A DNA stretch of 39,094 bases from Lysobacterales bacterium (GTDB lineage: Bacteria > Pseudomonadota > Gammaproteobacteria > Xanthomonadales > SZUA-36), in assembly GCA_013042915.1 (NCBI GenBank), contig JABDPF010000003.1, positions 1 to 39,094 on the forward strand. The letters run 5' to 3'. How positions within the stretch are numbered: the stretch's first letter is position 1; every line of letters begins with the position of its first letter. Shown here piece after piece: positions 10,237 to 21,980 of the stretch. The translations under genes were made by a program, and so were the position numbers. The notes below the pieces were generated by a model. It had not been told where the DNA came from and did no database searches. It was given only the letters and a program-made list of their open reading frames with translations.

Positions 10237-10285
10237 AAACCCTTTAGGCCTGCTGAATACCGTTAAAGACCCGACCGAACTACCG

Positions 10286-10442
10286 ATACCCCCTTCCAAG
10301 GGACGCTCAAGTACATCCATGTAGCGCTCGGTCTGAGCCCGCCCAGGGCTCATACGCCCCTGGAAGGGGGTATGGCCTGGACTTGGGCACAGGGGTGTTG
10401 ACATGAGGTTAGAATAGCTGCGCGACTCTGACCCCGGTTTTC
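10286..10442. repeat. Structured intergenic repeat, copy A (cruciform plus conserved tail)
   Basis: The left part forms a cloverleaf-like structure. A perfect 13-bp outer stem pairs 10286-10298 (ATACCCCCTTCCA) with 10361-10373. Inside it are TACAT/ATGTA (10312-10323) and TGAGCCC/GGGCTCA (10334-10352). The right part, 10374-10442, matches copy B at 12737-12805. The first 31 bases agree at 28 positions, and the end forms a second hairpin GAGGTTAGA/TCTGACCCC (10405-10435). It lies between the 3' ends of the convergent plsB and YdcH-like genes. The form resembles short palindromic elements moved by Y1-type (REP-associated) transposases, but no transposase is in the window and the mechanism is inferred. 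Confidence 0.75.
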
Positions 10443-10480
10443 TTGTCGCTACACGATGGCGCCGCGCGGCGGGGTTACTT

Positions 10481-10693
10481 TCAGGCATCCATGTCGGGGA
10501 TGAGCTGGGATTCCAGGAAGGCCATCCAGTCTTTGAGCTTGAGCTTGCGTTTCTTCATGCGCCGCAATTGCAGCTGATCCACGCTGGGGTCATCGGACAG
10601 CCGGGCGATGGCTTCGTCGAGGTCACGGTGCTCTTCGCGCAGTTCTGCCAGCAGCAGTGCGATTTCGCCGGGGTCTTTGTCGAATTGGTTCAC
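10481..10693 (-). CDS. Small YdcH/DUF465-family protein
   Basis: This 70-residue, highly charged protein is predicted to be all helical. The family hallmark is the basic run RRMKKRKLKLKDWMAFLE near the C terminus, typical of YdcH/DUF465 proteins (about 65-75 residues, unknown role, SlyX-like helical hairpins). A longer reading from 10759 would run across the ttcA start on the other strand. The GTG at 10693 gives the family's normal length and leaves 38 bases between the two divergent starts. No clear Shine-Dalgarno sequence is visible. The family assignment is by motif and length; the biological function is unknown. Confidence 0.75.
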   Translation of the reverse strand: MNQFDKDPGEIALLLAELREEHRDLDEAIARLSDDPSVDQLQLRRMKKRKLKLKDWMAFLESQLIPDMDA

Positions 10694-10719
10694 AATACAA
10701 GGATAGTACAAGTTTGGCG

Positions 10720-10725
10720 TAGAAT
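10720..10725 (+). promoter_or_regulatory. Possible -10 element for ttcA
   Basis: TAGAAT lies six bases before the ttcA ATG at 10732. If it is used, transcription would begin at or next to the start codon, giving a leaderless or nearly leaderless message. TTCACA at 10689-10694 resembles a -35 but is 25 bases away, which is too far, so the support is weak. Confidence 0.3.
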
Positions 10726-10731
10726 GCGCGG

Positions 10732-11595
10732 ATGATCGAAACCAAGCAACCGTGCTCACTCAAAAAGATCGCAAACCGCCTGCGACGCAACACCGGCAAG
10801 GCAATCGCCGACTTCAACATGATTGGCGAGGGTGACCGCGTCATGGTCTGCCTGTCCGGCGGCAAAGACTCCTTTACCCTGCTCGACATCCTGGTGGCGA
10901 TGCGCAGGCGGGCACCGGTGGATTTCGAGTTGGTCGCCGTCAACCTCGACCAGAAGCAGCCCGGTTTTCCGGCTGACGTGTTACCGGAATATTGCCGTGA
11001 GACCGGCATTCCGTTTTACCTGATCGAGCAAGACACGTACAGCGTCGTCAGGCGCGTGGTGCCCGAGGGCAAGACCAGCTGCGGTTTGTGCTCGCGCCTG
11101 CGCCGCGGCGCCTTGTATCGTTTTGCGGCGGAGAACGGCTACACGCGGATCGCGCTCGGTCATCATCGCGACGACATGATCGAGACGTTCTTCCTCAACC
11201 TGTTCAATGGCGGACGCATCAAGGCCATGCCGCCCAAGCTGCTGTCTGACGACGGCCGCAACGTGGTGATCCGTCCGATGGCGTACTGCGCCGAGGAAGA
11301 CATCCGTCGCTATGCCGCCTCGCGCCAGTTCCCGATCATTCCCTGCAATCTGTGCGGGTCACAGGCCAACCTGCAACGCCAGTCCATCAAGGCGATGCTG
11401 GGTGAGTGGAAGAGGCAGAACCCCGGGCGCGTGGATAATATTTTCCGTGCGATGAGCCACGTCTCGCCTTCGCAACTGGCCGACCGGGACCTGTTCGATT
11501 TCGAAAACCTGGACGCCACCTCGAAGTTGCGTGGTAGCCGAGATGACGGGTTGAGACCCGACCGGGCCCGGCTTACGCTCAACGTCGCCAACTGA
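10732..11595 (+). CDS. ttcA: tRNA 2-thiocytidine(32) synthetase TtcA
   Basis: TtcA is a cytoplasmic [4Fe-4S] enzyme that thiolates cytidine 32 of tRNA using ATP. The 287-residue protein has the PP-loop SGGKDS at 42-47 and two CxxC pairs, Cys117/Cys120 (SCGLCS) and Cys205/Cys208 (PCNLCGS), three of which normally hold the cluster. The family signature [16 protein letters not shown] starts near residue 16, as in E. coli, which supports the ATG at 10732. [16 protein letters not shown] and [11 protein letters not shown] are also typical. It runs divergently from the YdcH-like gene with a 38-base gap and is followed 12 bases later by the TRAP solute-binding gene. Confidence 0.95.
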
Positions 11596-11607
11596 AAGGA
11601 GAGCACC

Positions 11608-12714
11608 ATGGATCGCAGAAAATTTGTCAAGGGCGCGGGCATCGCCGGCGCCGCCGGTTTGCTCGCTGCCTGCGGAAAACAGGCCGGGACCACCGAGTGC
11701 GTGGAAGGCGCAAGCGCTGCCCGCGAGGAAACGTTCGAGTGGAAAATGGTCACCACCTGGCCAAGAGATTTCCCCGGGCTCGGTACCGGCGCCAACTACC
11801 TGGCGAACATCATCGGCGAGATGAGCGGTGGCCGCCTGACGGTCAAGGTCTATGGATCAAATGAACTGGTGCCGGCACTCGAGGTGTTCGATGCGGTACA
11901 ACGGGGAGTTGCCGAAATGGGACACGGCGGCGCCTATTACTGGAAGGGCGTGATCCCCGCCTCGCCGTTTTTCTCAACCATCCCTTTCGGCCTGACCGGC
12001 GCGGAAATGAACGGCTGGTTTTACCACGGCGGCGGCATGGAGCTGTACCACGAAGCCTACGCGCCCCACGGCATCACTCCCTATCCGATCGGCAACTCCG
12101 GCACACAGATGGGCGGTTGGTTCAACAAGGAAATCAACTCGGTAGACGACCTGGCCGGGCTGAAAATGCGCATTCCCGGTTTTGGCGGTGAGGTGCTCAA
12201 GAAGGTGGGCGGCACGCCGGTCAACATTCCCGGCGGGGAACTGTTCACCGCGCTGCAGAACGGCACGATCGACGCGACGGAGTGGGTCGGTCCGATGAAC
12301 GACCTGGCTTTCGGCCTGTTTCGCGCCGCCAAACACTACTACTACCCGGGCTGGCACGAACCGGGCACGGCGCTGGAGGCGCTCGTCAACCAGGAGGCCT
12401 TCGGGGCTCTGCCGGCCGACCTGCAGGCCATCGTCAAGGTTGCCTGCCAGGCCGCCAACGCCGACATGTACGCCGATTTCGAGGCACGCAACGGCGAAGC
12501 CCTGAAGTCACTGGTCGAAGAACACGGCGTGGACCTGCGACCGTTTCCGGACGAGGTATTGGCCGAGTTGAAACGTGCGTCGACCGAGGTGATCGAGGAA
12601 CTGGCTGCCTCGGACGCGATGGCGGCCAAAGTCTGGGCTTCTCTGTCGGCCTACATCGACCGGGTCAAGGGCTCCACCGCAATCGGATCGCAGTACTTCG
12701 TCGATCGACGCTGA
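11608..12714 (+). CDS. TRAP transporter solute-binding lipoprotein (DctP/TakP type)
   Basis: This 368-residue protein is the extracytoplasmic solute-binding part of a tripartite ATP-independent periplasmic transporter. The N terminus combines a twin-arginine-like motif (DRRKFVKG) with a lipobox (LLAAC, Cys near 22), so it may be Tat-exported and lipid-anchored. Family landmarks are WKMVTTWPRDFPGLGTG, SGGRLTVKVYG, GGWFNKEI, LKMRIPGFGGEVLKKVGGT with the ligand-binding Arg, and IDATEWVGPMND. The tone is closest to TakP-like binders of 2-oxo acids or other carboxylates, but the substrate cannot be fixed from sequence. An AAGGAGAG ribosome site precedes the ATG. Its permease gene dctM lies on the opposite strand, and no dctQ is present. 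Confidence 0.9.
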   Translation: MDRRKFVKGAGIAGAAGLLAACGKQAGTTECVEGASAAREETFEWKMVTTWPRDFPGLGTGANYLANIIGEMSGGRLTVKVYGSNELVPALEVFDAVQRGVAEMGHGGAYYWKGVIPASPFFSTIPFGLTGAEMNGWFYHGGGMELYHEAYAPHGITPYPIGNSGTQMGGWFNKEINSVDDLAGLKMRIPGFGGEVLKKVGGTPVNIPGGELFTALQNGTIDATEWVGPMNDLAFGLFRAAKHYYYPGWHEPGTALEALVNQEAFGALPADLQAIVKVACQAANADMYADFEARNGEALKSLVEEHGVDLRPFPDEVLAELKRASTEVIEELAASDAMAAKVWASLSAYIDRVKGSTAIGSQYFVDRR

Positions 12715-12722
12715 TTCAGACG

Positions 12723-12805
12723 CTGGAACTCAGCGTGGCCTGGTCTTGGGCAGAGGGGTGTAGACATTGGGGCAGAGTCCCAGAGCTTTTCTGGCCCCGG
12801 TCTTC
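12723..12805. repeat. Structured intergenic repeat, copy B (tail only)
   Basis: This is a diverged copy of the element at 10360-10442. CTGGAA, then an eight-base variable stretch, then a 31-base core agreeing with copy A at 28 positions (12737-12767) are in the same register. It is followed by a 31-base segment that forms GGGGCAGA/TCTGGCCCC (12769-12798, one bulge) and the shared CCCCGGT. The long outer stem of copy A is absent; a small CGCTG/CAGCG hairpin (12721-12735) takes its place. It lies between the convergent TRAP binding-protein and permease genes and may act as a transcription barrier. Confidence 0.72.
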
Positions 12806-20928: not shown

Positions 20929-21980
20929 GGACGCGCCCTGTTTGACCGGACACCGGCTTCGCCGCGGGGCAGCGCCCCGCGAACACCCGGCAACAGCACC
21001 GTCAACACACCGCCAAGCGCCAGCGCGAAGGCCGCTGCCAGCGGCCAGAAGAACAACTCGTCAACCGGCCGAATGGCTTCCTGATCGCTTTCAACCGGCT
21101 CCAGTTCGTCCAGCTGCCCGTAGATTTCCGCCAGGGCCTCGGCGTCGCGTGCCCGGAAGTAAGCACCGCCGGTGCGCTCGGCAATCGCCCGCAGCGTGTC
21201 CTCGTCCAGGTCGGCCGAGGGATTGACCAGCCGGCTGCCAAAAAAGTCCTGCACCATCATTTCGTCGGCGCCCACACCGACCGTGTAGATTCTCAGCCCC
21301 TCCCGTGCCGCGAACTCGGTCGCCTGCATCGGCTGCACCTCGCCCGAGGTGTTGGCGCCATCGGTGAGCAGGATCAGCACGCGCTCGCTGGCGGCATCCT
21401 CGCGCAGACGCTTGACCGACAGGCCGATCGCGTCCCCGATCGCGGTTTCCCGGCCGGCCAGTCCAATCTCCGATTCCTCCAGCAGGATGGCGGTGGTCTC
21501 GGTGTCGAAGGTCAGCGGCGTCTGGAGGTAGGCTCGGCTGCCGAACAGCACCAGGCCAACGCGATCGCCCTTGCGGCCCTGGATGAATTCGCCGGCCACT
21601 TTCTTGACCACCGCCAGGCGGTTGACCGGCTTGTTGCCCAGCACCATGTCCTGCGTATCCATCGAGCCGGAGATGTCGACCGCCAGCAAGAGGTCGCGAC
21701 CCGTGATCGGCAGAGTCTCGATTTCGCCCACCCACTGCGGCCGCGCGGCGGCAAGCAGCAGCACCAGCCATGCAAGGCCGGCCACCAGGGCCAGTACGGG
21801 CCGTTTGCCGGTGCCGGCCATGCCTTCGCGGACCCGCTCGAACCATGGAACCCGCAGCGCCTGCAAGGCGCCGCCGGGCGCCGGCTTCATTGATCTGCGC
21901 ACCAACCAGGGCAGCGGCGCGAGTGCCAGCAACCAGGGCCAGGCCAATGTCAGTCCTTCGACGGCGGCGCCTTCAGCCAT
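20925..21980 (-). CDS. batA: von Willebrand A membrane protein (BatA-like)
   Basis: This 351-residue protein has a hydrophobic N-terminal segment (LAWPWLLALAPLPWLV), a second at about 60-80, a vWA domain with a perfect MIDAS (DISGSM at about 102-107, TDGANTSG near 200) and a C-terminal membrane helix (FFWPLAAAFALALGGVLTVLL). This is the classic BatA layout, with the vWA domain between membrane anchors facing the periplasm. It overlaps the DUF4381 gene by eight bases and the batB/C gene by four, so the operon is tightly coupled. The exact biochemical role of BatA is unknown; vWA proteins encoded next to MoxR ATPases are thought to act together in metal-dependent protein remodelling. Confidence 0.92.
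   Translation of the reverse strand: MAEGAAVEGLTLAWPWLLALAPLPWLVRRSMKPAPGGALQALRVPWFERVREGMAGTGKRPVLALVAGLAWLVLLLAAARPQWVGEIETLPITGRDLLLAVDISGSMDTQDMVLGNKPVNRLAVVKKVAGEFIQGRKGDRVGLVLFGSRAYLQTPLTFDTETTAILLEESEIGLAGRETAIGDAIGLSVKRLREDAASERVLILLTDGANTSGEVQPMQATEFAAREGLRIYTVGVGADEMMVQDFFGSRLVNPSADLDEDTLRAIAERTGGAYFRARDAEALAEIYGQLDELEPVESDQEAIRPVDELFFWPLAAAFALALGGVLTVLLPGVRGALPRGEAGVRSNRARP

Follow-up and report, generated by a model that had tools for sequence, protein, structure and literature searches.

Here, a structured repeat was analyzed in a 39,094-nucleotide (nt) stretch of DNA from a Lysobacterales bacterium (GenBank assembly GCA_013042915.1, contig JABDPF010000003.1), referred to as the window. 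One repeat in it, copy A, belongs to a family of long RNA-like hairpins that is dispersed, with up to tens of copies per genome, in many gamma-proteobacteria; within this family, it is unremarkable and partly decayed. In the best reading of the evidence, to which we give a probability of about 0.6, the family consists of RNA elements that were once mobile, are scattered near the 3' ends of genes, and carry predicted CsrA/RsmA sites in pairs; it includes Rfam TwoAYGGAY, Yersinia YPAL/RU-2, and, on the opposite strand, Rfam Ysr224.

A dispersed family of hairpins with two GGA loops

Full copies in the source genome fold into a long stem with two inner hairpins, and the strand on which the loops of these hairpins read GGA is referred to as the GGA strand. 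Two covariance models were used. R1 was made from 13 copies on the strand opposite GGA, and its alignment contains two-sided changes in 21 of 48 pairs; R2 was made from 48 diverse copies on the GGA strand. An earlier note on this DNA had seen two copies and allowed that there might be no others. In the source genome, R1 found 37 places (66 matches, both strands) and R2 found 35 (37 matches, two of them the other strand of a place). Matches to R1 were obtained in 22 of 61 genomes and matches to R2 in 71 of the 369 genomes sampled from the class (64 of 272 genera), the source genome included in both; in the R2 survey, at most 11 candidates were scored per genome, and matches may count both strands of one place. 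When nine genomes were picked for holding a motif match and up to 150 candidates were scored in each, all nine gave R2 matches, from 7 to 90 per genome, again with both strands of one place possibly counted: Marinobacter salarius 90, Neiella marina 82, Pseudomaricurvus 69, Marinobacter similis 53, Salinibius 38, Reinekea 37, a Legionellaceae metagenome-assembled genome (MAG) 24, Aliidiomarina iranensis 19, and an Idiomarina MAG 7.

Two sets of elements were compared. The first set contains 129 elements, left from 142 hairpins after 13 were dropped for loop length, for lack of GGA, or, in two cases, by hand. The motif set contains 105 elements found only by the motif of the second hairpin, in at least 120 stretches of a contig scan, among the matches listed, and its taxon list is no census; of 133 motif matches, 28 lacked an outer stem and were excluded. 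The two sets share one element (L135/L225).

For the 48 diverse copies, 91.1% of the cells were paired, compared with 59.2% after shuffling and at most 44.2% when slid, and the covariation score was 0.802 compared with 0.207 after shuffling; two-sided changes occurred in all 22 outer pairs of the stem (the structure counted was derived from the same alignment, with three pairs added). Covariation, whose absence the earlier note had named as a refuting outcome, runs through the whole outer stem. The long stem, with arms of 20 to 33 nt in 98 of the 105 motif-set elements, changes freely in sequence while its pairing is kept. Inside it, the first hairpin has a clear GGA hexaloop in 150 of the 234 elements, reading ANGGAN in 148 of these, and the second has one in 184 of 234, reading ANGGAN in every case. 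Where both hairpins are clear (141 elements), the two GGAs lie 23 to 26 nt apart. Below the first loop, pairs 4 and 6 are often purine pairs (A.G in 60 and G.A in 55 of the 150), frequently with G.G between them; none were seen in the subtype of the source genome. In some elements of genome G033 and Pseudomaricurvus, a GGA loop is replaced by a recurring insert of roughly 40 nt that consists of AAGGTGA-hairpin-GAGAGGG and then a CCTGG hairpin (L069, minus, 1741; L132, 1739; L150, 1736; L153, 1717; L186, 5422). This insert had no bacterial Rfam match, and two of three folded examples were stabler than shuffles.

Wobble pairs point to RNA of the GGA strand

The loops and nearby apex motifs, rather than the stem, were used to assign the GGA strand. 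Read on this strand, the outer stems of the 129 first-set elements contain 118 G.T pairs and 15 A.C pairs, even though R1 was built on the other strand. The 27 copies from the source genome alone gave 30 and 7, and the motif set gave 100 and 13 (p 8e-18); by element, 60 members of the motif set had more G.T, 5 had more A.C, and 40 were tied. Because every A.C on the GGA strand appears as G.T when the complement is read, the two counts would be expected to be equal if the cause were a strand-symmetric one in DNA. Thus, the asymmetry indicates which strand works as RNA: selection probably acts on the RNA of the GGA strand, which is the minus strand for copy A. Transcription of the near gene would bias the wobble pairs in the opposite way, and the flanks have no excess of T on the GGA strand (0.22 and 0.21). 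R1 and R2 were fitted to the family, so their own strand preference is no independent test.

Predicted CsrA/RsmA sites and a possible role

The consensus bound by CsrA is (A/U)CANGGANG(U/A), and a CsrA dimer bridges two sites. Two ANGGAN hexaloops with C-G closure at the spacing found here fit a CsrA/RsmA dimer site. Published work also describes CsrA sites as generally paired (PMC4333381). The source genome has a csrA gene (expectation value [E] 1.7e-24; 75-residue frame, 51 residues read).

Binding of CsrA by the element RNA, like any sponge or 3'-end role, is a prediction from sequence. RNA of the GGA strand might come from transcripts that continue beyond the gene farther away or that start at an unrecognized promoter. 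A CsrA/RsmA dimer could then bind the element RNA and bridge both GGA loops, and the copies together would form local marks near 3' ends as well as a distributed CsrA sink. The copies may have spread by transposition, as reported for YPAL.

Placement and the strand of the nearest gene

Genes were called with a simple codon score. From the 142 hairpins of the first set, 109 could be placed, 64 in convergent, 40 in co-directional, and 5 in divergent gaps; those not placed were at contig edges (25) or overlapped a called gene (8). The motif set was placed 25, 42, and 11 times, respectively (27 of 105 not placed), against background gene pairs of 77, 355, and 75. Convergent gaps were thus enriched (odds ratio 2.6, p 6e-4), and divergent gaps were not depleted.

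Elements often occur as inverted pairs. In 22 of 22 first-set loci judged to contain two family members, these have GGA strands that point away from each other; the count takes in some members outside the 129, and two other hairpins, in L124 and L148, were judged not to belong to the family. Among 100 of the 120 loci listed by the motif scan, R2 gave 37 neighbor pairs within 500 nt: 23 in which the elements point apart, 7 in which they face each other, and 7 with a shared direction (counted by hand). Isolated doublets in these 100 loci point apart in 15 of 16 cases, and the other, mixed orders lie in clusters of at least three, mainly in Neiella. One exception in the source genome is on contig C59, where elements at 21802 and 21973 are both on the plus strand. 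Clusters of three to six elements in a row, with changing directions, were seen in Neiella (L182, L209, L210, L222) and Reinekea (L212). Some elements are nested between inverted halves of other palindromes similar to repetitive extragenic palindromic (REP) sequences (L125, L133, L136, and L145 in genome G003; L007; L114). Short tandem repeats such as GTGACGC or GACGGTGA adjoin others (L067, L116, L118, L135, and more, in G010 and G019).

Several observations weigh against the paired-CsrA-site reading. The clear hexaloop form is absent from the first hairpin in 84 of the 234 elements and from the second in 50, and the 84 include the source-genome subtype, whose first hairpin has a five-base UGGAU loop. 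Other mismatches on the GGA strand of the 129 elements are skewed too (A.G/G.A 32, C.T/T.C 8), so the wobble pattern might conceivably reflect a mutational bias. The use of G.T pairing in REP stems is similar in published work (PMC3733652); the wobble argument is therefore not new and does not by itself separate the family from REPs. No promoter signal was found 5' of the GGA strand in a search for a common promoter, and the promoter score in the motif set was slightly higher on the other strand (7.38 versus 7.15, p 0.03). Between co-directional genes, sense and antisense orientations are about even (21/19 in the first set, 23/19 in the motif set). For TwoAYGGAY, the best score in the source genome (34.4 bits) is below the cutoff of 43, and copy A gave no match at E up to 1; for the YPAL apex, the median score over the 129 elements (14.5) is within the shuffled range. 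As csrA was found in 50 of the 61 genomes, its presence in the source genome is no test of CsrA binding.

The position of the nearest gene also counts against this reading. For first-set elements, the distance to a gene 3' end is shorter on the 3' side of the GGA strand than on its 5' side (medians of 40 and 167 nt), and a gene 3' end within 60 nt was found in 58 of 83 cases on this side and in 14 of 85 on the other. Thus, the closest gene usually reads the opposite strand. The same bias is weaker in the motif set (median 46.5 versus 70.5 nt; within 60 nt, 28 of 44 versus 21 of 48). T-rich ends likewise follow the stem more in the direction opposite to the GGA strand, where at least 7 T in 15 were counted in 22 of 98 and 4 of 124 cases, compared with 2 of 98 and 0 of 124 on the GGA strand; with so few T after the stem, an intrinsic terminator in the GGA direction was ruled out. 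These findings would suit an element whose working strand is that of the nearest gene, a 3'-end hairpin that halts transcription or exonucleases for the adjacent mRNA, with incidental GGA loops. The report that YPAL is transcribed with upstream genes and perhaps influences RNA stability (PMC2229807) would agree with this, as would the location of Ysr224 on the nearest gene's strand. However, the wobble asymmetry is the reverse of what selection on that strand would leave, and the GGA loops are conserved in spite of the changes in the long stem. We therefore consider such a 3'-end hairpin unlikely.

Age, movement, and the Y1 transposase

In Marinobacter species, elements occur at orthologous loci with flank identities of about 66 to 98%. 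In four aligned orthologue groups, the apex is nearly constant while the arms change in pairs, as in the double change between L283 and L258. At L255 and L231, the element is absent where a relative has one. Copies can thus persist over long periods, with gain or loss at some loci. The idea that each copy sits in a new palindrome, with the variable arms as its target, was ruled out, since Marinobacter orthologues keep the element while both arms change together. In Marinobacter salarius, L247 appears to be a chimera of two inverted elements, and its relatives L270 and L219 have two elements there.

The earlier note had described the repeat as an element like REPs or bacterial interspersed mosaic elements (BIMEs), possibly moved by a Y1 transposase. 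What stands is a repeat family with structure and covariation that lies near gene 3' ends, often in inverted pairs; the cruciform, in turn, is a different element, of the TwoAYGGAY/YPAL type. The transposase link holds for the terminal hairpin found beside copy A and in copy B. GGGGTCAGA occurs 42 times per 94.7 kb around the Y1_Tnp (PF01797) genes of relatives, compared with 14 times per 285 kb at their other loci. Of 30 Y1_Tnp loci, each the best match of its genome (30 of 37 genomes), 16 have the GGGGTCAGA/TCTGACCCC motif next to the gene, and in 11 of these it is inverted on both gene sides. The source genome contains three perfect palindromes of the GGGGTCAGA-type hairpin.

For the cruciform, no link to a transposase was found. 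PF01797 had no match in the source genome, a draft of 96% estimated completeness, or in the element-rich drafts G003 and G033 (88 to 89% complete), whereas Y1_Tnp genes are present in the element-rich G010, G019, and G057. A Y1 transposase is thus not required, and as the mover of the cruciform it is not supported. It is improbable, in our view, that the family is a REP/BIME-like DNA palindrome moved by a Y1 (REP-associated tyrosine transposase [RAYT]) enzyme and working as a DNA structure. Such an element would account for the convergent intergenic placement, the inverted pairs, and the REP-like halves nested around some elements, in addition to the terminal hairpin motif beside Y1_Tnp genes and the presence of these genes in three element-rich genomes; REPs share the placement, the opposite pairs, and the G.T pairing in stems (PMC3733652). 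However, besides the three drafts with no Y1_Tnp match, the strong strand asymmetry of the wobble pairs is unexpected of a strand-symmetric DNA structure, and a three-way junction of about 100 to 130 bp with two GGA hairpins is unlike a REP of 20 to 40 bp.

Selection of GGA-strand RNA for a partner other than CsrA (another protein, or a transposition intermediate) would draw on the same structural and wobble evidence and on the spreading mechanism that dispersed copies need, otherwise left unexplained, but it deserves little credence given the paired, C-G-closed hexaloops described above and the independent match of TwoAYGGAY to a CsrA motif model (PMC4333381).

If CsrA does bind, the CsrA regulon would need to be revised in many marine bacteria, because one genome can hold up to 90 matches to the paired-site model. 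More broadly, YPAL, TwoAYGGAY, and Ysr224 might be one class-wide mobile RNA element family whose tens of copies per genome form a distributed, transcript-borne CsrA/RsmA sink. In that case, a transposable element would have spread by carrying the sites of a host regulator and would rewire the regulon of each gene it landed behind. This is a tentative view, with somewhat less than an even chance of being right.

The two copies in the window

As the earlier note had stated, 10360-10442 and 12723-12805 (copies A and B) align in register without gaps, and the best 31-base stretch, 10374-10404 against 12737-12767, is identical at 28 positions. Over the whole alignment, 60 of 83 positions are identical. 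Among pairs with an exact 8-base seed on either strand of the window, the core is the only one with at least 28 of 31 identities, and none of six shuffled windows gave such a pair. The convergent placement also holds: copy A is flanked by the 3' ends of a gene for a GPAT_C-type acyltransferase and of a DUF465 gene, and copy B by those of the DctP and DctM genes of a tripartite ATP-independent periplasmic (TRAP) transporter. However, copies A and B have only a side piece in common, a spacer and a GGGGTCAGA-type hairpin, and this piece is the flank of such elements plus that hairpin. Spacer-like sequence also adjoins several other element copies in the source genome, and when this genome was searched by BLAST with copy A and its flanks, 28 matches were obtained, part of them to the side piece only. 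On contigs C24 and C62 of the source genome, a diverged version of 10440-10500, the flank of copy A towards DUF465, occurs again together with spacer and hairpin, beside further elements.

The element itself was found at copy A (Table 1). R1 matched it at 10268-10381 with 91.7 bits, and R2, built from the GGA strand, gave 14.5 bits on the plus strand. The three-way cruciform noted earlier in copy A is present; rather than an addition peculiar to this copy, it is the very part that forms the family. Hairpin B retains ACANGGANGU, which we take to be a CsrA/RsmA-type site by its consensus. In hairpin A, the loop differs from those of its paralogues, so GGA has been lost from this copy, and the outer stem is shortened on the side facing 10374. 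No match in the window reached the Rfam gathering threshold.

Copy B gave no R2 match at E up to 10 and either lost the element or never had one. A full element (L131) is present in the orthologous gap of the relative G019 (flank identity 74%). Copy B may therefore mark where an element was lost, and its short hairpin before the spacer is a possible remnant of the deleted element. The evidence of two copies for compensatory changes in the terminal hairpin proved weak: in copy A, pairing of GAGGTTAGA with TCTGACCCC includes an A.C mismatch and a G.T pair, and pairing in copy B needs a bulge.

Table 1. Features of copies A and B in the window
Feature	Position	Strand	Basis or remark
TwoAYGGAY/YPAL-type hairpin element, copy A (long stem and two small hairpins)	10281..10378	minus	R2 78.8 bits, E 1.2e-17
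Long stem, 3' arm	10286..10302	minus	17 nt, 94% complementary to 10357-10373
Hairpin B, UACAUGGAUGUA, predicted intact CsrA/RsmA-type site ACANGGANGU	10312..10323	minus	sequence, family loop statistics
Hairpin A, UGAGCCCUGGGCGGGCUCA	10334..10352	minus	loop UGGGC; paralogues UGGAC or UGGAU
Long stem, 5' arm	10357..10373	minus	17 nt, 94% complementary to 10286-10302
Spacer core, copy A	10374..10404	none	28/31 with copy B; just 5' of element on minus strand
Imperfect GGGGTCAGA...TCTGACCCC-type hairpin, copy A	10405..10435	none	TCTGACCCC at 10427
Short perfect hairpin ACGCTG-GAACT-CAGCGT, copy B	12720..12736	none	directly before spacer
Spacer core, copy B	12737..12767	none	28/31 with copy A
Terminal hairpin GGGGCAGA...TCTGGCCCC, copy B	12769..12798	none	sequence and motif

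Comparison with known systems

CsrB/RsmZ sponge RNAs carry several GGA hairpins in one RNA, whereas the present family has two per element, in dispersed copies for which no promoter signal was found. The CsrA small RNAs (sRNAs) reported for Alcanivorax are two other sRNAs (PMC9788540). REP/BIME elements with RAYT (Y1) transposases resemble the family in placement and inverted pairs, and sequence next to Y1_Tnp genes is matched by the GGGGTCAGA hairpin that adjoins copy A and forms part of copy B; the cruciform differs in its architecture and has no shown transposase link. In the literature library searched, no publication was found that joins YPAL with CsrA or TwoAYGGAY with Yersinia, none was found on Marinobacter repeats, and nothing related was found on CsrA with REP.

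YPAL/RU-2 of Yersinia is described as a DNA repeat near genes, similar to a miniature inverted-repeat transposable element (MITE) (PMC2229807, PMC2759123). It is dispersed and intergenic, with targets in or beside dyad symmetry and with sites known both filled and empty (PMC2229807). In the RU-2 sequence given in Table 1b of PMC2759123, the same apex with two GGA hairpins is present, and this apex scored 35 against the best element, compared with a maximum of 15 over 300 shuffles. The sequence homology applies to the subtypes nearest to YPAL; the scores cover the 129 elements and not copy A singly. YPAL differs in its 168 bp and longer arms and in its description as a MITE-like DNA element. 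For Ysr224 (RF02770), the printed consensus reads, by eye, like the reverse strand of RU-2, and its model matched the strand opposite GGA at 22 to 31 bits (e.g., L084, L222, L143), all far below the cutoff of 70. Thus, Ysr224 may be annotated on the nonselected strand, or both strands may be transcribed.

TwoAYGGAY (RF01731) was listed in 2010 in the human gut, gamma-proteobacteria, and Clostridiales (PMC2864571). Its CsrA binding is predicted, and it has an external stem and two hairpins with AYGGAY loops (PMC4333381). The family shares the enclosing stem and the two loops, with the ANGGAN loops and the 22 covarying outer pairs reported above; copy A keeps the second GGA only. TwoAYGGAY also has tandem G.A pairs in one stem, and comparable purine pairs were seen below the first loop in part of the elements. 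The compensated long stem and the tens of copies per genome are not mentioned for TwoAYGGAY in the published passages considered. The TwoAYGGAY model gave end-to-end matches of 34 to 45 bits (five, in 4 of 8 loci of named genomes), with scores of 45.2 in Reinekea and 34.4 to 42.2 in Marinobacter, and scored over its cutoff in 8 of the 61 genomes. Taken together, a palindromic repeat, an RNA candidate, and an sRNA family, each with a name of its own, appear to belong to a single family, which is abundant in many gamma-proteobacteria.

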